Below are positions 8,791 to 21,281 of a stretch of DNA of 64,000 nucleotides, in pieces. Location of the stretch: contig OY282519.1 of NCBI GenBank assembly GCA_958296405.1, forward strand, positions 3,580,132 to 3,644,131, in the 5' to 3' direction. The position numbers and the translations under genes were made by a program. The DNA is from an uncultured Pseudomonadales bacterium. Its GTDB lineage: Bacteria; Pseudomonadota; Gammaproteobacteria; Pseudomonadales; Azotimanducaceae. The first letter of the stretch is position 1, and each line of letters begins with the position of its first letter. A model generated the notes under the pieces. The model saw only the letters and a program-made list of their open reading frames with translations. It was not told the DNA's origin and made no database searches.

Positions 8791-9810
8791 TCAGCCGCGC
8801 GATGGACGCCCTGCGAGCCGAGCGAGCAGCGCTTCGCCGGTGTCGCACTCAAGCAGCCATTCGCCGGCCGCGTCCAAGCGCGACAGGTCCGTCTCGTCCG
8901 CCAACAGAGTCGTCACACGCCCCGCCACGCCCACGCCGAAGCGCCGCTCCGCCATCCGGCCAAGCAGGGCCACGCGCCCTTGGGCTAGGCCACGCTCGAC
9001 GCCCTGCGCGACCTCCGCCTCTTTCCAACGCGCCAGCGTCGCGTCCAACATCGCCGTCATCCGCTCTCCTCCTCTCTCCGCGAGCATCCGCTCGAAATCT
9101 GCCAGCGGTGGCAGTCCCGCCGCAAAGCCGTCCCGCTCCAGCGCGGACTCCACCCGCAGGTGCAGCCCGCGGCGGAACTCCGACGAACCCGCCCCGCCGT
9201 GCCGCCGGAACGCCTCCAGCAGCAGCCTCGGCAGCGCCTCCGCCGGCGACGACTCCAACTCCGCCAGCGTCGCCAGGCAGCCGCTAGGAACCAGCCGCCG
9301 GCCGGCGCCGTCCACTCCCCGCGCCAGCGCCTGCAAGTCCACCGTAGCATACATCCGCACCTGCGCCGGCGCTTCGTCCCCCGTCAGCGGGCCGGCGCAC
9401 TCCGCCGACGCCCGCCACGGCCGCTCGCCGTTGTGGACCACGATGGACAGCATCCCCGGCACCTCCCCCTCCGCCCGCGCCGTGCCGGACTGCCGCAGGC
9501 CGGACTCCACCAGGTGCAGGTAGTCCCGCATCCGCCAAGCCATGTCCGCGTCGTGGCCGGACTGGAACTCGAGCAGCGCCAGGACGTAGCGGCGGCGGCC
9601 GTTCGCCAGCTTCCCCGACTTGCGCTCCACGCGGCGCAGCTTGTCCTGCACGCGGGTGCGCGACAGCGCCGTCAGGTGCTCCTTGTCCAGCGACGCGGCG
9701 GCGCCGAAGTCCAGCCCGCCGGCCAGCCGCGGAGCGACGAGCCGCACGGTCTCCTCGAAGAGGCGCCGGTCTTGGAACAGCACCTTGTACGGCGCGTCGC
9801 TGGCCTGCAT
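8791..9810 (-). CDS. Rpn-family PD-(D/E)XK nuclease (copy A)
   Basis: A 339-residue member of the Rpn recombination-promoting nuclease/putative transposase family. The N-terminal half has the Rpn signature: YKVLFQDRRLFEETVRL, then the nuclease core strand LALLEFQSGHDADMAWRMRDY, with Glu and Gln of the ExQ motif near residue 95, then SIVVHNGERPW. The C-terminal part is a charged linker (VERGLAQGR) followed by a DUF4351-like helical domain. The ATG at 9810 is preferred because copies A and B diverge just upstream. E. coli Rpn proteins are DNA endonucleases; some Rpn systems act in phage defence and are restrained by a short C-terminal product made from an internal start. A matching site is annotated at 9058. 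Confidence 0.88.
   Translation of the reverse strand: MQASDAPYKVLFQDRRLFEETVRLVAPRLAGGLDFGAAASLDKEHLTALSRTRVQDKLRRVERKSGKLANGRRRYVLALLEFQSGHDADMAWRMRDYLHLVESGLRQSGTARAEGEVPGMLSIVVHNGERPWRASAECAGPLTGDEAPAQVRMYATVDLQALARGVDGAGRRLVPSGCLATLAELESSPAEALPRLLLEAFRRHGGAGSSEFRRGLHLRVESALERDGFAAGLPPLADFERMLAERGGERMTAMLDATLARWKEAEVAQGVERGLAQGRVALLGRMAERRFGVGVAGRVTTLLADETDLSRLDAAGEWLLECDTGEALLARLAGRPSRG
9058..9073 (-). promoter_or_regulatory. Internal ribosome site and start in Rpn copy A
   Basis: Inside the Rpn frame, a perfect AGGAGG (complement of 9068-9073) lies 7 bases before an in-frame ATG (9058-9060). Translation from it would give an 89-residue protein (8791-9060) made of the linker and C-terminal domain only. 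The same site occurs at equal spacing in copies at 20232 and 19801. This matches the known Rpn arrangement in which a short C-terminal product is translated from within the gene and neutralises the full-length nuclease. Confidence 0.6.
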
Positions 9811-10048
9811 CGGGTTCCGCCGAGTTCCGTGCGCGAGGCGACAACTGTGCGCCATCCGGCGAGCCAAATCCCGCCCAAACGCCACGCCGGGCGGATGTCC
9901 CACGCAAATCAAAGACATCTGCCATGCCAAGGCAGCAGACCGGCCTCCGTGATCCATACCCACGCCCACGGACGCCACCCCGCTTCGCCTCCGCCCCCCA
10001 TCGCTGGCTCGTTGCGCTCATGTGGCAGCTTGGCGCAGAATGCGCCTC

Positions 10049-10138
10049 GGAGAGGTGCCGGAGTTGGTCGAACGGGCCTGACTCGAAATCAGGTGTGTCC
10101 TTTGGGCACCCAGGGTTCGAATCCCTGCCTCTCCGCCA
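10049..10138 (+). tRNA. tRNA-Ser(CGA)
   Basis: A 90-base tRNA with a perfect 7-bp acceptor stem (GGAGAGG with CCTCTCC), an anticodon arm CCTGA-CTCGAAA-TCAGG giving anticodon CGA, and the long variable arm typical of tRNA-Ser. The T arm carries the GGTTCGAATCC loop, and CCA is encoded (10136-10138). It sits immediately upstream of the foreign-looking nucleotide-metabolism genes, so it may mark an island boundary. No second copy of its 3' end was found elsewhere in the window. Confidence 0.96.
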
Positions 10139-10246
10139 ACCAAATGGCCGTCCGCTCCGTTGCGGAGCTGCGTTCATCAGCATCAACGTGATACAAATGG
10201 TGCAACAACGGAACGAGGCATCCTTTGGGGCAAAGACGAGGATGAC

Positions 10247-12346
10247 GTGGAGTTGAACCGCTGCCCGCTCGAACATACGTTCATCCACCTCCCTAGGATC
10301 GGCCTGCGCACGGAGAGGCGCTTGTGGGGAGAGGGCATCCTAACTTGGTCTGATCTCGAAGAAGCCCGCCGGCCGCCAGCCGATCTGTTCGCTCCCGCTC
10401 GTGACGACTGTTTGGCTGCCATCGAAGCTTCCCGATGTGCGCTCTCCAATAAGGACGCGGACTACTTCGCCGCTAGGCTCCCATCTCGAGAGCACTACAG
10501 AATAGCCACAACCTTCCCGGACGACACGGTGTTCTTGGACATCGAAACGACCGGCCTGAGCCTCTACTACGACGAAATCACGCTGATCGGCCTGTCGAAG
10601 GGCGAGCGCTACGCCTGCTGGTTCCCGAATACGTCCGCAAGCATCTGGCATGATCTGTTGAACGACGCCAAGTGTCTCGTTACGTTTAACGGCACCGCTT
10701 TCGATCTGAAGTTTCTGGCGAGGCTAGAAAGTGGCGCAAACCTGCCTCGCGCACATGTTGACCTACGCTACTTCGCCCGGCGGGCGCAATTGAAGGGCGG
10801 CCAAAAGAAGATCGAGCGCGAGTTGAGCTTTGAACGCCCCGAGCAAATCAGCGATGCCACCGGTGCGGATGCCGTGCGGCTCTGGTACGAGTACAGGAAT
10901 GGCGACTTACGCGCTGGCCACGATTTGGTCCAATACAACCATTCAGATGTGGAAGGCATGAAGGCCATCCTCGACGAGACCATCCGGCGCGTCGGCGAGA
11001 ATCAGCGACTTAATCCGCCCGCCCCATTCGCATCTGCTAGGGCACCTGTATGTTTCAAGCGCGGTGCCAAAGGCATCAACGTCATTGACGTGCCGCAGTT
11101 CCGAGGCCGAACTGGCCCCAAGGCGACCTACGAAGACTTGGTGGACTACATTCGTGGTGATGCCATTACCGTGATCGGCATCGACCTCACCGGCTCGGAG
11201 CACCGACCATCCGGATGGTGCGAGCTTAAGGGCCGCCACGTCGAAACGCGCATGGTCAGAACGGACGCGGAGATGCTAGAGGCCATAGCCGCCATCAAAC
11301 CCCAGCTCGTGTCGATCGACTCGCCACTTTCGCTGCCGCGAGGCCGCACCCGTGTTGATGACGACGACCCTGGTCGTGCCGAATTTGGCATCATGCGGGT
11401 GTGTGAGCGCATGTTGAAACGCCGAGGCATCAACGTGTACCCCTGCTTGATCCCCAGCATGCAAAAACTCACTGATCGTGGCATGGGCTTAGCGGCCAAA
11501 ATCCGAACTTTGGGCATCCCGGTGATAGAGAGTTATCCCGGCGCCGCCCAAGACATCATGGACATCCCGCGAAAACGGGCGAGCCTTGTGCAATTGAAGG
11601 AGGGTCTCCGCCGTTTTGGCCTCGAAGGGCGCTCGGTTTCAGCGGACGCTAACCCCAAACACGACGAGCTCGATGCCATCACCTCCGCCATCGTTGGGCT
11701 GTTCTTCTGGTCAGGCCGTTTCGAGGCGCTAGGGAACGAGGATGAAGACTACTTGATCATTCCGAGAGTTTCCGACGAGGGCCGGGAGACGCAGTGGCAC
11801 GGCCGGCTCGTAGTCGGCGTCAGTGGCCCGATTTCATCGGGCAAGACAACCGTCGCACATGGGTTGGAGAAGCGGGGCCTCGTTTATGGTCGCTATAGCC
11901 AAGTGGTAGCGGACGAAGCGGTGAAGCAAGGCCGGGGCACTACTAGGCAGGCGCTCCAAGAGGTCGGTCAGATGATCCACGTTGAGCTAGGGCAACGTTG
12001 GCTCAACCGTCAGCTACTTGGCCGTTACGGCGATCGCGGGCAGATGTTCGTTGTGGATGGCCTGCGATGGCCGGAAGACCGCGCTTTCTGGCTAGAGCGC
12101 TACGGGCCAGCGTTCACCCACATCCATCTTGATGTGTCCGCCGATATCCGACGACAGCGGTTTGTCCAGCGAAACGGGCCTCATGCCGACTTCGACGACG
12201 CAAGCCACCATGATGTTGAGCAGGGGGTCGAAAAGCTGCTGCAGCTAGCGGATCGTATCCTTCCTAACGAGGGAGAACATCACGCTCTTTGTGCTTGCGA
12301 CGAGATCGTGACGACACATCTTCGCAGAGACGGCCAATGCCCGTAA
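10247..12346 (+). CDS. Three-domain fusion: DEDD exonuclease, DUF429 nuclease, P-loop nucleotide kinase
   Basis: A 699-residue fusion. Residues about 1-250 form a YprB-like RNase H-fold 3'-5' exonuclease with a complete DEDD set: Asp98 and Glu100 in FLDIETTGL, Asp153 in TFNGTAFDLKFL, Asp234 in NHSDVEG. Residues about 300-490 form a DUF429 predicted RNase H-fold nuclease: Asp313 in IGIDLTGSEH, Asp358 in SIDSPLSLP, Asp476 in KHDELDAITSA. Residues about 525-699 are a P-loop kinase of the dephospho-CoA/nucleoside-monophosphate kinase class: GVSGPISSGKTT, Lys533, then VVDGLRWPED. The GTG at 10247 has GAGGA just upstream and yields the usual YprB opening with FIHLPRIG; the frame is also open from TTG 10160. 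Its stop overlaps the PurZ-like start by 10 bases. Cytoplasmic. Confidence 0.85.
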   Translation: MELNRCPLEHTFIHLPRIGLRTERRLWGEGILTWSDLEEARRPPADLFAPARDDCLAAIEASRCALSNKDADYFAARLPSREHYRIATTFPDDTVFLDIETTGLSLYYDEITLIGLSKGERYACWFPNTSASIWHDLLNDAKCLVTFNGTAFDLKFLARLESGANLPRAHVDLRYFARRAQLKGGQKKIERELSFERPEQISDATGADAVRLWYEYRNGDLRAGHDLVQYNHSDVEGMKAILDETIRRVGENQRLNPPAPFASARAPVCFKRGAKGINVIDVPQFRGRTGPKATYEDLVDYIRGDAITVIGIDLTGSEHRPSGWCELKGRHVETRMVRTDAEMLEAIAAIKPQLVSIDSPLSLPRGRTRVDDDDPGRAEFGIMRVCERMLKRRGINVYPCLIPSMQKLTDRGMGLAAKIRTLGIPVIESYPGAAQDIMDIPRKRASLVQLKEGLRRFGLEGRSVSADANPKHDELDAITSAIVGLFFWSGRFEALGNEDEDYLIIPRVSDEGRETQWHGRLVVGVSGPISSGKTTVAHGLEKRGLVYGRYSQVVADEAVKQGRGTTRQALQEVGQMIHVELGQRWLNRQLLGRYGDRGQMFVVDGLRWPEDRAFWLERYGPAFTHIHLDVSADIRRQRFVQRNGPHADFDDASHHDVEQGVEKLLQLADRILPNEGEHHALCACDEIVTTHLRRDGQCP

Positions 12347-13437
12347 CCGTGGTAGCCGGCGCCCAGTTTGGCTCTGAGGGCAAGGGCAAGGTCGCGCTGT
12401 TCTTGGCGCAGCACCAACAGGCCACCATTGTTATCCGCGTGGGCGGCTCAAACTCTGGCCATACGGCCTACGGTAGCGATGGCCGCCGGCATGTATTCCG
12501 CCACCTCCCAACAGCCGCGCTCCTTCAAGATACCCTATGTGTGCTCGGCCCCGGCTCCTACATTGACGCCGAAGTGCTGCGGCAAGACATGGAGCGCATC
12601 GACTTTTCCCCGGATAGGTTGGCGATAGATCCACATGCGATGGTCATCACCGACGAGCATAAGAGCAAGGAGAGAAGCGCCAACCTTAGGGCTCGGATTG
12701 GATCAACCGCTAGCGGCACGGGCGCAGCAGTAATGGATCGAGTCTCACGTTCCAACGCCGTGCATTGGGTTTCCGACGATCCCTACGCTGCCCGGTTCGT
12801 TCGGCCAACCCGCCCGATGATCCGCGCCGCCTTGGATCGCGGAGAGCGTGTTCTGATCGAGGGTACACAGGGCTTTGGGCTATCCAACCTACTATCTCGT
12901 CACTACCCTTTTGTCACGAGCCGAGACACCACAGCCGCCGCGTTCGTCGCCGAAGCTGGACTCAGTCCCGTCGACGTCGACAACATTGTCCTCGTCGCAC
13001 GGGCATTCCCGATCAGAGTCAGTGGCAATTCGGGCCCGCTCCCTTTCGAGACAGACTGGCGCACCATCGGCGGCAACTGCGGTCGCCCGCACCTATCCGA
13101 GCTTTCATCGGTGACCAAGTGGGTCCGCCGTGTGGCGCGATTCGATCCAGCTATTGTCAAAGAGGCTATCGACGCCAACGCCGCAACCCACCTAGTGCTT
13201 AATCATGTAGACTACTTTCGTCAGACAGTCGCAGCCTCTACCTTGCCCTCGTCGTGGGAAGTCACTGTCGCCTCGTTTGAAGCAAGCATCGGCAGGACAT
13301 TCAATTGGATCGGAACTTCCCCCTCTCAGCTCGTATCACGTTCTGACATCCAAAATAGTATATGCTCAGACGCCCAACAGCCGCAGGAGAACGGCCGGAC
13401 TCGCCACCAAAAACGAACCTACTTGGAGTCGCCATGA
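12337..13437 (+). CDS. PurZ-like adenylosuccinate synthetase homologue
   Basis: A 366-residue homologue of adenylosuccinate synthetase that resembles phage PurZ rather than housekeeping PurA (about 430 residues). The loop that is WGDEGKGK in PurA reads FGSEGKGK, so catalytic Asp13 is Ser13. PurZ enzymes carry Ser there and use dGMP, Asp and ATP to make the precursor of 2-aminoadenine. Other PurZ-like blocks are GHTAYG, RIGSTASGTGAA, EGTQGFGLS, YPFVTSRDTT, PIRVSGNSG and SSVTKWVRRV, where PurA has TTGRRRRTGW. The guanine-specifying TKLD of PurA is replaced by LNHVD. The ATG at 12337 lies inside the end of the upstream gene and the stop overlaps the next start (ATGA), so the three genes are translationally coupled. 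Confidence 0.85.
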   Translation: MPVTVVAGAQFGSEGKGKVALFLAQHQQATIVIRVGGSNSGHTAYGSDGRRHVFRHLPTAALLQDTLCVLGPGSYIDAEVLRQDMERIDFSPDRLAIDPHAMVITDEHKSKERSANLRARIGSTASGTGAAVMDRVSRSNAVHWVSDDPYAARFVRPTRPMIRAALDRGERVLIEGTQGFGLSNLLSRHYPFVTSRDTTAAAFVAEAGLSPVDVDNIVLVARAFPIRVSGNSGPLPFETDWRTIGGNCGRPHLSELSSVTKWVRRVARFDPAIVKEAIDANAATHLVLNHVDYFRQTVAASTLPSSWEVTVASFEASIGRTFNWIGTSPSQLVSRSDIQNSICSDAQQPQENGRTRHQKRTYLESP

Positions 13438-14327
13438 TGGCCCACAATCCCTCAAACACCACACATGACGATCTCAGCGACCTAGAACATGACCCACACA
13501 CCCATGAGCAAGGCGTACTGCTCAGCAATCGAATAGAGTGTTATGTCCACAGCCACTCTATGATACGGCCTTTCTGCAAAGCCAATCTAGAGCCAGCTGG
13601 CTACAAAGTGCGAGTGGGGGAAACCTTCTTCCGTGGCCCGCACAGAGGTAGGTTGCAAGACGACACCCCGTTGGAAATCAAACCTCACGAGGTGGTCATC
13701 ATAGAGACAGAAGAGTGCTTTCGCATTCCCAGATTCATGATCGCACGGTGGAACATCAAAGTTAAGCTTGCGTACAAGGGGCTCCTTTGGGTAGGAGCAG
13801 CGCAGGTTGATCCCGGATATGTGGGACGCTTGGCCTGCCCCATCTACAATCTCTCTAGAAAGACCATATGGCTCAAGAAAGGCGATAACGTCGCCCTAAT
13901 CGACTTTGTAAAAACCACTCCTTACGACAACCAATGCAAGCAGTTTGAATCGCTACCACCACGAGGCATTGACAACGTTGCTAAGAACGAACTTCGATCT
14001 GCGTTGTCTGATTATGGTGAGAGGGTTAAGAAAGTAGACAAGACAGTGAACGAGGTGAGATCACAGGCGGTCTACTTCTCTACGCTCGTCATCACATTGC
14101 TCGGAGTCTTGTTTGCTGTTTTGGTCGGTCGTGAAAGTGGTGCCCTACAGTCCATTCCTGAGTTAAGCGCTTGGGTCCGAATTGGGGCAATTGCTCTATC
14201 GCTCGCACTCTCTACTTCCGCCTTAATGCTTGTTTTGCGCGATGCAAAACTGGGGAGATGGACTCTTTTGCCGATTGTACTCGTACTAGTGTTCCTTTTG
14301 GGTAACTCTCTTGGCGAGATCTCCTGA
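13434..14327 (+). CDS. dCTP deaminase/dUTPase-fold protein with C-terminal membrane helices
   Basis: A 297-residue protein. Residues about 25-170 have the dCTP deaminase/dUTPase fold: LEPAGYKVRVGETF, IKPHEVVIIETEE, then VDPGYVGRLACPIYN, which aligns with the VDPGWxGxIxLEFYN motif of dCTP deaminase. The catalytic Glu of LEF is replaced (CPI), and the Arg-Ser nucleotide segment is not conserved, so deaminase activity is unlikely. After a short coiled linker come three predicted membrane helices near residues 213-235, 247-268 and 272-290. The start ATG at 13434 has GGAG 5 bases upstream and overlaps the PurZ-like stop. A membrane-anchored nucleotide sensor or effector is an inference. Confidence 0.75.
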   Translation: MMAHNPSNTTHDDLSDLEHDPHTHEQGVLLSNRIECYVHSHSMIRPFCKANLEPAGYKVRVGETFFRGPHRGRLQDDTPLEIKPHEVVIIETEECFRIPRFMIARWNIKVKLAYKGLLWVGAAQVDPGYVGRLACPIYNLSRKTIWLKKGDNVALIDFVKTTPYDNQCKQFESLPPRGIDNVAKNELRSALSDYGERVKKVDKTVNEVRSQAVYFSTLVITLLGVLFAVLVGRESGALQSIPELSAWVRIGAIALSLALSTSALMLVLRDAKLGRWTLLPIVLVLVFLLGNSLGEIS

Positions 14328-14354
14328 TACGCTCGTTGCGATCAAGACTTGCTA

Positions 14355-15709
14355 CTACTGCAAGATGCCTTTGAGGTCATCGCGCAAAGAGATCAATTCG
14401 CTATTCGTCATGCTCGCAACGGTGTCGCATAGCAAGTGCAACTTGTCGGACCGAGAACGAGAGGTCACTTCGTACGCTTGACGGCTAATCTCAGGCAAGC
14501 GCGAATAAGCGTGACCTCGCTCCGGATTCGCGACGCTACACCAGAGGTAGTCCATCGTTTCTTTAAACTGCTTCTTGTCCTTACTTCGCCCGCCGACATA
14601 CATCTCGATGCTTGAATCCTCTACGTCGGCCAAGTTTCTTGAGCCGGCTGCATAGTTTCGCAACGTCGGACTTTTGAATTAGCTTGTACTCGCTATCTAT
14701 TTTTCCCTTGAGCATCTGATCGACATGGCGGACGACGGTGCTGGTAACCGATTCTATCATCCCGAAAAAACGGATATCATCCTAAACACCCGCATAGACT
14801 GCTCATCTAAGTTGCCGCTGGCTCTTCTTAACTTGCAAACTCCTTGCAATCCCTTTTAGGACTCTTTTCCGCACTTCTCTAGTCTTGGCATCTGAATTTT
14901 TCGCAAGGAAGTCCATGACGTTGTTGAAGGACGCGTACCCCATTCTCAAGATGTCTTCGACATCCATTACGGAGTAAACAATATCGTCGCAGGCTTCCAC
15001 GATGTAGGCCAAAGGGTGGCGCACTTCCACGGGGAGGCCGGTTTGTTTCCATACTTCACGAGCTATGTAGCGCTCGCTCCTAAAGATACCGAACTTCCTA
15101 AAGCCCCTTCGGTTGTTCGCGAAAACGCGGTACTTGAGTAGCACGGTCAGCGTGGCGCACGTCAGGTCTAGGCCGAAATTGCCGTCAAGGTTCTCAAGGC
15201 GCGCCAGGAGGCGGAACGTCTGGCAATTGCTGTCGAACTCGGCAAAGTCCTTGAGTTTTGATGCCGCGGGTCTTGCACCACCGGCGAGTGGCCTTTTCGC
15301 CTGGATGGCCGAAGGGTGGAGTGCTAAGGTCGTGTGCAAGACCGGCGGCAGCTAGCAACGCCGGAACCGTTCGTTCCACTTGGAGCTTATCGGCGAGGTC
15401 GCCAAACACGTTGTGGCGATGATCATGGGCAAGCCTAACGCCGATGCTGCGGGCTAAGTTGCTTACCTCGAGCGAGTGCGTCAAACGGGTACTAATTGAG
15501 CGATTCGTATCAGGAGGGAAGAGTTGCGTCTTGTCAGCCAGCCGACGCGTTGATGTCGAAGAGAGGATACGGTCGTAGTCGTGCTCAGTCTCTTCGGCGC
15601 AGACGTTGGTGCCGGCGGATGCGGCTTGACCGCAGTGCCGTTTTCGTGCGATCTCCTTCCGCCGCGTCGAGCAGAGGAGCTTCCGCCAATCTAGCTGGCT
15701 ATCTGGCAT
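14355..15709 (-). pseudogene. Decayed HD-domain dGTPase (dGTP triphosphohydrolase) homologue
   Basis: The reading is broken across frames. The ATG at 15709 begins a good dGTPase start with HDYDRIL, RRLADKTQLF, TRLTHSLEVS and the HD metal motif in GLAHDLSTPPFGHPGEKA. The frame is lost at the TTTT run at 15256-15259 and resumes with KLKDFAEF, SNCQTFRLLARLE and the second motif in VEACDDIVYSVMDVED. It then hits in-frame stops at 14803 and near 14782. A third piece (14355 to about 14640) holds the C-terminal SMTNSELISLRDDLKGI. One homopolymer slip could be a sequencing error, but two stops plus another shift indicate decay. It is convergent with the dCTP-deaminase-fold gene and has the same AT-richer composition. 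Confidence 0.85.
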
Positions 15710-19928: not shown

Positions 19929-20987
19929 TCAGCCGCGCGGCGACCGCCTTGCAAGCTGCGCGAGCAGCGCCTCGCCGGTGTCGCATTCGAGCAGCCATTC
20001 GCCGGCCGCGTCCAAGCGCGACAGGTCCGTCTCGTCCGCCAACAGAGTCGTCACGCGGCCCGCCACGCCCGCGCCGAAGCGCCGCTCCGCCATCCGCCCA
20101 AGCAAGGCGACGCGCCCTTCGACAAGCCCCCGCTCGACGCCTCGCGCCAAGCCTTGCTCGAGGCCCCGCTCCACGCCCTGCGCGACCTTCGCTTCTTCCC
20201 AACGCGCCAGCGTCGCGTCCAACATCGCCGTCATCCGCTCTCCTCCTCTCTCCGCGAGCATCCGCTCGAAATCTGAAAGCGGCGGCAGCGCCGCCGCCAA
20301 GCCGCGCCGGCGTTCCAGCGCCGACTCCACCCGCAGGTGCAGCCCGCGGCGGAACTCCGACGAACCCGCCCCAGCATGCCGCCTGAACGCCTCCAGCAGC
20401 AGCCTCGGCAGCGCCTCCGCCGGCGACGACTCCAACTCCGCCAGCGTCGCCAGGCAGCCGCCAGGAACCAACCGCCGGCCGGCGCCGTCCGCGCCCCGCG
20501 CCAGCGCCTGCAAGTCCACCGTAGCATACATCCGCACCTGCGCCGGCTCAGCGTCGCCCGTCAGCGGGCCGGCGCACTCCGCCGCCGCCCGCCAAGGCCG
20601 CTCGCCGTTGTGGACCACGATCGACAGCATCCCCGGCACCTCCCCCTCCGCCCGCGCCGTGCCGGACTGGCGCAGGCCGGACTCCACCAAGTGCAGGTAG
20701 TCCCGCATCCGCCACGCCATGTCCGCGTCGTGGCCGGACTGGAACTCGAGCAGCGCCAAGATGTAGGAGCGGCGGCCGTTCGCCAGCTTCCCCGAACTGC
20801 GCTCCACGCGGCGCAGCTTGTCCTGCACGCGGGTGCGCGCCAGCGCCGTCAGGTGCTCCTTGTCGAGCGACGCGGCGGCGTGGAAGTCCAGCCCGTCGGC
20901 CAGCCGCGGGGCGACCAAGCGCACGGTCTCCTCGAAGAGGCGCCGGTCTTGGAACAGCACCTTGTACGGCGCGTCGCTGGCCTGCAT
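19929..20987 (-). CDS. Rpn-family PD-(D/E)XK nuclease (copy B)
   Basis: A 352-residue paralogue of copy A with near-identical nuclease half: YKVLFQDRRLFEETVRL, LALLEFQSGHDADMAWRMRDY and SIVVHNGERPW. The main difference is an expanded charged linker (repeats of VERGL/EQGL/ARG), which lengthens the protein by 13 residues. The C-terminal domain is intact. The start at 20987 matches that of copy A. Immediately downstream on its own strand is a partial tandem copy of its 3' end. Expected role: DNA cleavage in recombination or phage defence, as for the Rpn family. Confidence 0.88.
   Translation of the reverse strand: MQASDAPYKVLFQDRRLFEETVRLVAPRLADGLDFHAAASLDKEHLTALARTRVQDKLRRVERSSGKLANGRRSYILALLEFQSGHDADMAWRMRDYLHLVESGLRQSGTARAEGEVPGMLSIVVHNGERPWRAAAECAGPLTGDAEPAQVRMYATVDLQALARGADGAGRRLVPGGCLATLAELESSPAEALPRLLLEAFRRHAGAGSSEFRRGLHLRVESALERRRGLAAALPPLSDFERMLAERGGERMTAMLDATLARWEEAKVAQGVERGLEQGLARGVERGLVEGRVALLGRMAERRFGAGVAGRVTTLLADETDLSRLDAAGEWLLECDTGEALLAQLARRSPRG
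20232..20247 (-). promoter_or_regulatory. Internal ribosome site and start in Rpn copy B
   Basis: AGGAGG (complement of 20242-20247) stands 7 bases before an in-frame ATG (20232-20234). Initiation here would produce a 101-residue C-terminal protein from 19929-20234. Conservation of site and spacing in all three related copies argues for use, although the codons also encode a conserved GGER segment. Confidence 0.6.
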
Positions 20988-21281
20988 CGGTTCCGCCGAA
21001 GTCCGGGCTGTGGAGGCGCAACTGTGCGCCATCGGGCGAGCCAATTCCCGCCCAAACGCCACGCCGGGCGGATGTCCCACGCAAATCAAAGACATCAGCC
21101 ACGCCAAGGCAGCGGACCGACCTCGCTTGGAACGCCACTGTGCGCATCCAGCTATCGCAGGGGCAACGTTTGATCTCGCCGTGCGTCGCCATCGGCCGCG
21201 GCGCCACACGCATGCCGGTCGATGCCGCGAGGGAACAGCGCTCGGAACACGAAGACGGCGAGGCCGAGCCCCAGCACGCGC

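Follow-up and report, generated by a model that had tools for sequence, protein, structure and literature searches.

A recurrent three-gene cassette joining a nuclease-DUF429-kinase fusion, a PurZ-like synthetase and a DCD-fold membrane protein is probably an unreported antiviral alarm of the nucleotide-signal kind

We found that a 64,000-nucleotide stretch of DNA from an uncultured Pseudomonadales bacterium (assembly GCA_958296405.1, contig OY282519.1, positions 3,580,132 to 3,644,131 of the forward strand; "the window" below denotes this whole stretch) carries three genes, A, B and C, which probably form a so far unreported antiviral alarm of the nucleotide-signal immunity kind. We tentatively read the A-B-C set as a cell-owned, probably antiviral nucleotide-messenger cassette, in which C would read the signal and damage the membrane. 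The basis of this reading is a matter of sequence: gene order and linkage, domain content, the apparently kept active sites of A and B, the uniform loss of the Dcd/dUTPase site in the aligned C proteins and the predicted membrane helices, and every biochemical step of the cellular system is one that we infer. A role in defence is probable in view of sporadic occurrence, island context and architecture. The three genes are intact, lie on the plus strand and overlap one another end on start:

10247..12346, plus strand: gene A, a fusion of RNase_H_2 (MrfB-like DEDD exonuclease fold), DUF429 (RNase H-like) and an AdkA-like nucleoside monophosphate (NMP) kinase, with a GTG start.
12337..13437, plus strand: gene B, a PurZ-like (2-amino)adenylosuccinate synthetase with Ser at the PurA Asp13 position.
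13437..14327, plus strand: gene C, a putative pseudo-enzyme of the DCD fold, with helices at the C-terminus and membrane segments by prediction.

Using a two-row PurZ alignment (the window and Sinorhizobium medicae), we scanned genomes, where 163 stretches matched, 105 were confirmed and the best 80 were used for the genome counts, and viral contigs, where 142 matched, 98 were confirmed and the best 80 were used for the viral counts; all loci were then searched with local profiles of A, B and C. Being anchored on PurZ, the genome scan yields counts that do not give the frequency of A or C alone. Within 6 kb of B, both A and C were found at 58 of the 80 genome loci, C only at 6, A only at 4 and neither at 2, and 10 of the 80 were kinase-PurZ fusions, one of them with a DCD hit. 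The first-pass annotation had proposed a neighbourhood search for recurrence of the gene set, and the search bore it out, with the order A-B-C on a single strand at 55 of the 58 trio loci (exceptions L112, L117 and L127). When B was taken to start at the first Met just upstream of its motif, that start lay at most 3 bases past the end of A in 41 of 53 measurable loci, 32 of which overlap. The hosts of the 58 trio loci span 10 named bacterial and 2 archaeal phyla: 38 Pseudomonadota, 5 Bacillota, 3 Acidobacteriota, 2 Cyanobacteriota, six further bacterial phyla with one each, one Promethearchaeota, one Methanobacteriota and two bacteria without a named phylum. Additionally, a deoxynucleoside kinase (dNK) gene family was observed 3' of C at 16 loci, 13 of them among the trio loci, and three scanned members matched Pfam PF01712 (2.3e-24, 2.3e-19 and 9.7e-31). 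With the dNK and the NMP kinase in A, such loci have two further nucleotide enzymes directed at one and the same substrate level.

We next consider the viral side. A was found in none of the 80 PurZ-bearing viral loci, several of which are contigs of only 4-6 kb. Separate viral-contig scans with C alone (3 pattern matches), an A alignment (7) and a C alignment (6) confirmed no relative, these short-peptide patterns having limited reach, and C had no match at 1e-5 in a phage collection. The possibility, raised in the first-pass annotation as a refutation, that the block is a degraded prophage nucleotide module thus found no support and was rejected. A plasmid collection contained 9 records with C-like proteins and 13 with partial matches to A, all of which fell short of 80% coverage of A.

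Gene A matched RNase_H_2 in Pfam at 1.1e-27 and DUF429 at 4.4e-5 (23.8 bits, cut-off 23), and P-loop kinase models below their cut-offs. With family profiles, the kinase half matched solved AdkA-like kinases at 2e-14 (Protein Data Bank relatives 3lw7/3h0k) and the nuclease part MrfB (8un9) at 5.8e-4. A Foldseek search with the AlphaFold model (predicted local distance difference test, pLDDT, 89.9) returned 3lw7 for the kinase and, more weakly, NrnC for the nuclease part. Across an alignment of the window and 33 chosen loci (34 sequences), the acidic DUF429 residues D312, D357, D472, E473 and D475 are kept in 34/34 and the kinase K532 in 31/34, the other three being gaps; judged from these residues, the predicted active sites of DUF429 and the kinase are kept. 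The nuclease residues are D97 (30/34), E99 (31/34), D152 (34/34) and D233 (30/34). Among 62 A proteins of the genome loci, some of those with fewer recognised domains being cut by contig ends, profiles recognised all three domains in 48, nuclease and DUF429 in 8, DUF429 and kinase in 5 and DUF429 alone in 1; at L152, L157 and L158 a gene of its own, between A and B, encodes the kinase-like part. Against PADLOC, A matched PDC-S44 at 7.2e-9 through DUF429 and the anti-phage dCTP deaminase at 4.5e-8 through the kinase (residues 519-676), and neither B nor C matched any family. Passages of PMC3985635 place DUF429 in the RNase H-like superfamily, with nuclease activity likely, and describe its fusion to NUDIX and RelA/SpoT domains. 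In Dyadobacter (L010:4459-6621), a stand-alone DUF429 gene with 52% identity to the domain in A directly follows a gene annotated as diadenylate cyclase. These fusions and this gene pair indicate that DUF429 accompanies nucleotide-signal enzymes elsewhere.

Gene B matched PF00709 at 2e-46, phrog_1211 at 6.3e-72 and the PurZ model NF038379 at 1e-70, with 238.3 bits under a cut-off of 300. The closest solved relatives of its profile are the short PurA proteins 2d7u and 5k7x (3.9e-78), followed by PurA-like 7vf6 (4.4e-71), a group headed by 6fm1 (2.5e-61) and PurZ 7odx (2.2e-46). Residues common to PurA are retained, for example K16 and H42. Ser replaces the PurA Asp13 in 38/38 aligned B proteins, a count to be read with the fact that one of the two genome-scan patterns behind the 80 loci contains GSEGK. 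According to passages of PMC12884076, the residue at this position (Ser/Gly) separates PurZ from PurA. A quick tree of 77 rows (69 hand-picked from 159 usable sequences, plus 8 references) was built with Shimodaira-Hasegawa-like approximate likelihood ratio test (SH-aLRT) supports and without bootstrap, and it contains long branches and low-support forks. In it, the trio rows divide into a group of 26 joined by 5 viral rows (SH-aLRT 100) and a group of 7 joined by 2 viral rows (95). The 12 kinase-PurZ fusions make up one clade (99), which lies in a third part of the tree (81) together with the reference PurZ and PurZ0 rows and the other viral rows. These groupings suggest that the cellular system is not simply phage PurZ. 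The viral PurZ proteins that group with the cellular trio clades come from contigs L014, L016-L020 and L022, where neither A nor C was seen nearby; among 10 scanned of the 67 neighbours of these seven loci, primase genes lie near PurZ in L018 and L022, and L018 also has a DNA polymerase.

The same viral contigs bear on an account in which the system is directed at Z phages, with C detecting phage-made 2-amino-purine dNTPs (deoxynucleoside triphosphates) and A and B amplifying or intercepting them. It would gain from the shared clades and from the pairing of PurZ with a Dut-fold protein in phage PurZ0 loci: a DCD/Dut hit lies within 6 kb of PurZ in 52 of the 80 viral loci, as expected from PurZ0 phages with DutZ, and passages of PMC12884076 report DutZ in 98/98 PurZ0 genomes. 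We nevertheless regard this account as very improbable, because the cassette occurs in 12 named phyla and the ligand of C is one that we only infer. To our knowledge, moreover, few Z phages are known.

Gene C matched the Pfam DCD family PF22769 at 4.2e-13, and its AlphaFold model (mean pLDDT 81.8) resembled the Thermococcus pacificus dUTPase 8y1w in Foldseek (E 3.7e-12, TMt 0.84). We aligned the window and 36 chosen loci to the Dcd of the host itself and observed that the catalytic E138 is replaced by Pro, the phosphate-binding S111 by Ile/Val and R115 by His/Tyr/Phe, in each case in 37/37 C proteins. An acidic residue is conserved before that Pro (Asp in 36/37, Glu in 1/37), and R104, G115, P126 and N138, among others, are invariant in the same 37 proteins. 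Site loss together with invariant residues speaks less for decay than for a pocket retained to bind a different ligand, and C is, from these alignments, most likely a conserved pseudo-enzyme acting as a sensor. Besides its Dcd, the host genome also has an ordinary PurA with Asp at the catalytic site (GDEGKGK), so B and C are extra copies. The window C has three hydrophobic segments near its C-terminus, and its earlier description as an inactive DCD-fold membrane protein agrees with both results. By a simple hydropathy rule (threshold 1.6), at least one hydrophobic segment lies beyond residue 150 in 60 of 66 genome-locus C copies compared with 7 of 53 viral DCD/Dut copies, a contrast that is partly one of length because many of the viral copies, at ~140-170 residues, are too short to score.

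Under the messenger reading, the cassette would act in four steps. The nuclease/DUF429 part of A, in some genomes with dNK, would supply or gate a purine deoxynucleoside monophosphate (dNMP), most likely deoxyguanosine monophosphate (dGMP) freed by DNA breakdown during infection. B would condense the purine dNMP with aspartate to an N6-succino-purine deoxynucleotide, which would be succino-2-amino-dAMP if the substrate is dGMP, and the kinase part of A would phosphorylate this product towards the triphosphate. C, with its Dcd/dUTPase site lost and a membrane anchor gained, would then bind the unusual nucleotide, disrupt the membrane and stop the infected cell. In PurZ0 phages the Dut-fold partner DutZ hydrolyses dATP and dGTP, as passages of PMC12884076 describe, which indicates that a related fold can bind purine dNTPs. 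A broader form of the proposal, which we put forward as doubtful, is that immunity of this kind is widespread in bacteria and archaea: a PurZ-type synthetase, aided by the built-in kinase, would convert infection-freed dGMP into an N6-succino-2-aminopurine deoxynucleotide alarm for a pseudo-dUTPase with a membrane-killing domain to read. Phage PurZ and DutZ would then be captured or counter-evolved relatives.

The same enzyme logic of a synthetase and an NMP kinase, often with a dNK, would also serve a toxic-nucleotide defence, comparable to the prokaryotic viperins. Here an N6-succino-purine dNTP produced by A and B would poison DNA synthesis of the virus, and C, tethered to the membrane, would buffer or sense the product and so protect the host. 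The DCD/dUTPase fold is moreover a house-cleaning one, and DutZ with its action on dATP and dGTP belongs to the superfamily (passages of PMC12884076). We consider this alternative unlikely, since C lacks the Dcd/dUTPase catalytic and phosphate residues in all 37 proteins and is thereby ill suited to be a detoxifying hydrolase, and since buffering needs no membrane anchor.

We also weighed whether B instead makes a modified purine for host DNA while the nuclease and DUF429 of A cut DNA lacking or carrying it. The relation of B to Z-genome synthetases is in keeping with such a modification and restriction system, as are the two RNase H-like domains of A with their DUF429 acidic residues kept throughout. 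A YfbR-like HD gene, of the family type of the Vibrio phage VP5 dATP triphosphohydrolase, lies by the B and C pairs L005 and L119. However, in neighbour clusters that are partly annotated, this family was found at 7 loci (five kinase-PurZ fusions and these two pairs) and at 0 of the 58 A-B-C loci, and the 26 recurrent clusters listed yielded no recognisable polymerase, lyase or glycosylase. The window's host also keeps a normal PurA, and the membrane anchoring of C would be left unexplained, so that we find this account improbable. The first-pass annotation had put forward a conflict or DNA-modification system; its nucleotide-based conflict half stands after both of the refutation checks that came with it, and its DNA-modification half is weakened by the enzymes missing from the partly annotated clusters and by the predicted membrane anchor of C. 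At L005 (8302-14463, on a Sinorhizobium medicae plasmid), the PurZ and DCD pair is accompanied by the YfbR-like HD gene, by a ThiF/E1-like gene and by a small protein resembling ubiquitin on visual inspection.

The distribution of the cassette bears on a non-defensive role, either in nucleotide salvage or in clearing damaged purine nucleotides (house-cleaning). In favour of it, all of the folds concerned (kinase, dNK, synthetase and DCD) handle nucleotides, and the carriers include free-living environmental genomes. Occurrence is nonetheless sporadic: of 398 genomes in the window's phylum, 2 have a full-length A (the window's own is one of them) and a third, G150, matched by its kinase alone, and a search with the DUF429 part centred on G085 matched 1 of the 398, G085 itself. 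C-like proteins were observed in 5 of 58 relatives, again with the window's own genome included. The nearest relative, L094, shares its flanks with the window, with identities of 85% for B, 74% for C and 96% for A. Furthermore, more PADLOC models were hit in the neighbourhood than in control regions: 150 neighbour proteins (the first 150 of the 161 nearest non-core proteins at 59 loci with A) matched 260 of 5027 models at 1e-5, compared with 58 models for 132 control proteins. The controls came from 20 regions of 10 kb placed by hand, all in the window's phylum and two of them in the window's own genome. The leading models among the neighbours were RmrA, type I methyltransferase and capP, each with 4/150 proteins, and the control leader was mad2 with 3/132. 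With a DCD that looks inactive and has membrane helices, these patterns make a salvage role quite unlikely.

Several observations weigh against the messenger cassette. The PADLOC models overlap heavily, the comparison counts models rather than proteins and its control regions are few, so the excess is a rough sign of a defence-island context and no test, and the near neighbours of the block within the window resemble ordinary metabolic genes. Of 62 A proteins, 6 (at least one of them truncated) lack a recognised nuclease domain, and the residues of this domain are kept less well than those of DUF429, suggesting that it may be dispensable. The GSEGK in the scan pattern makes the Ser count in B partly circular. 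L005 and L119 carry B and C without A, together with the YfbR-like HD gene, and are closer to a Z-type pathway. Finally, 6 of 66 C copies have no membrane helix at the threshold used, some of them truncated or short, and C could retain activity through other residues.

Two further features adjoin the block in the window:

10049..10138, plus strand: tRNA-Ser(cga), identified by ARAGORN, directly 5' of the A-B-C block.
15709-14355, minus strand: HD dGTPase remnant, frameshifted, with dGTPase matches in pieces; a passenger outside the conserved set.

The first-pass annotation had counted the dGTPase with A, B and C as one linked set of four. The linkage of A, B and C, intact and overlapping, was upheld; the dGTPase was rejected as a member, being broken, on the opposite strand and found only in the window and L094 in a local search of 173 loci and the window. 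It is spread over three reading frames, with frame changes near 15251 and 14587 relative to the intact L094 copy, and its pieces score 58.9 and 81.2 bits against NF041026, whose cut-off is 400. Upstream of the intact copy, L094 has ~1.16 kb of extra DNA (11458-12622) that is not in the window and is probably a mobile insertion. G+C content is reduced to 0.573 in the block (10139-14327) and 0.539 in the segment after it (14328-15709), compared with 0.672 and 0.66 in the flanking remainder of the window. The tRNA-Ser(cga) gene is a possible integration site for the block; no exact repeat of its 3' end (last 14-24 bases) occurs elsewhere in the window, and in an empty-site comparison the window's flanking genes lay beside the tRNA in none of 7 other genomes of the genus. 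Two similar long minus-strand genes (8791-9978 and 19929-21209) lie on either side of the region and correspond to repeated stretches in L094; presumably, from their look, they are Rpn/DUF4351-type nucleases.

Other gene families recur near B. At 14 loci (e.g. L144:10092-10838) B has beside it a ~250-residue protein whose N-terminus reads approximately MQNRYxGDxGD, the one scanned member having no Pfam match, and a family found near B at 9 loci, usually upstream (e.g. L133:4760-5596), has one scanned member that is an RlmJ homologue (2.3e-69). A second recurrent pair (L006:5449-8354, L007, L008 and L161-L173) joins the kinase-PurZ fusion to a nearby protein of one family, which was counted at 14 loci; the L006 member is DUF7002 (1.7e-69), and rhizobial fusion loci also carry the YfbR-like HD protein and a 452-residue protein without a family match. 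On a Rhizobium leguminosarum plasmid (L011:5375-11628), both strands encode FolE, a PurZ-like protein, PurB, QueE, IMP dehydrogenase and QueC, a cluster that looks like a deazapurine nucleotide or DNA-modification pathway using the PurZ-like enzyme.

The set of PurZ, DUF429-kinase and DCD-fold transmembrane protein was found undescribed in a search of the open-access literature, with subscription papers and preprints largely beyond its reach. A machine-learning survey lists a dUTPase domain among unvalidated predicted defence domains, and its main text contains neither adenylosuccinate nor DUF429 (PMC13092281). If the proposal is true, it would add aspartate-linked purines as a new signal chemistry for nucleotide-messenger immunity and, as a new sensor class, membrane-anchored dCTP deaminase/dUTPase folds that have lost catalysis, and would place the enzyme family behind Z-genomes in a cellular setting. 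Dozens of sequenced genomes have A, B and C as open reading frames, and some of these genomes belong to named strains, with Mariprofundus erugo (L096), Nitrosomonas halophila (L104) and Nostoc linckia (L100) among the named carriers, so that direct tests of substrate, product, ligand and protection are within reach.

When compared with known systems, the cassette shares parts with several of them. The anti-phage dGTPase differs from the window copy, which is frameshifted and far under the NF041026 cut-off. The kinase domain of A resembles part of the anti-phage dCTP deaminase (PADLOC dCTPase; NF041025), whereas A has no deaminase part and scores 14.7 of 400 bits against NF041025. Dcd and dUTPase enzymes share their fold with C (PF22769; 8y1w), which is without their catalytic Glu and phosphate-binding Ser/Arg in 37/37. 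The short-type PurA proteins 2d7u and 5k7x, which we take to be archaeal, are the best solved relatives of B and similar to it in length (~340 residues), but have Asp where B has Ser.

CBASS and Pycsar couple a nucleotide signal to membrane effectors, a logic that the proposed cassette shares, whereas A, B and C contain no CD-NTase or nucleotidyl cyclase match in Pfam, NCBIfam or PADLOC. The phage Z-genome pathway (PurZ/PurZ0 with DutZ or DatZ/MazZ) likewise has a Ser-for-Asp13 synthetase beside a DCD/dUTPase-fold protein. It differs in that the 33 sampled cellular rows form two groups apart from reference PurZ and PurZ0, that C of the cassette looks inactive and membrane-anchored, that the nuclease-DUF429-kinase fusion is absent from all 80 viral PurZ loci and that a Z polymerase was not recognised among the cassette's recurrent, partly annotated neighbour clusters. 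In Kongming (KomABC), KomA is a deaminase, KomB is HAM1-like, and KomC is SIR2-like and depletes NAD. This system makes deoxyinosine triphosphate (dITP) with nucleotide kinases and senses it by KomB, according to passages of PMC12948488. It is the nearest functional analogue of the proposed reading: NMP kinases take part in producing a non-canonical purine dNTP, and a nucleotide-binding protein senses this dNTP and switches on an effector. In contrast to Kongming, A, B and C have no adenosine-deaminase-, HAM1- or SIR2-type match in Pfam or NCBIfam, and the cassette instead has a PurZ-type synthetase, a built-in kinase and a proposed membrane-domain effector.

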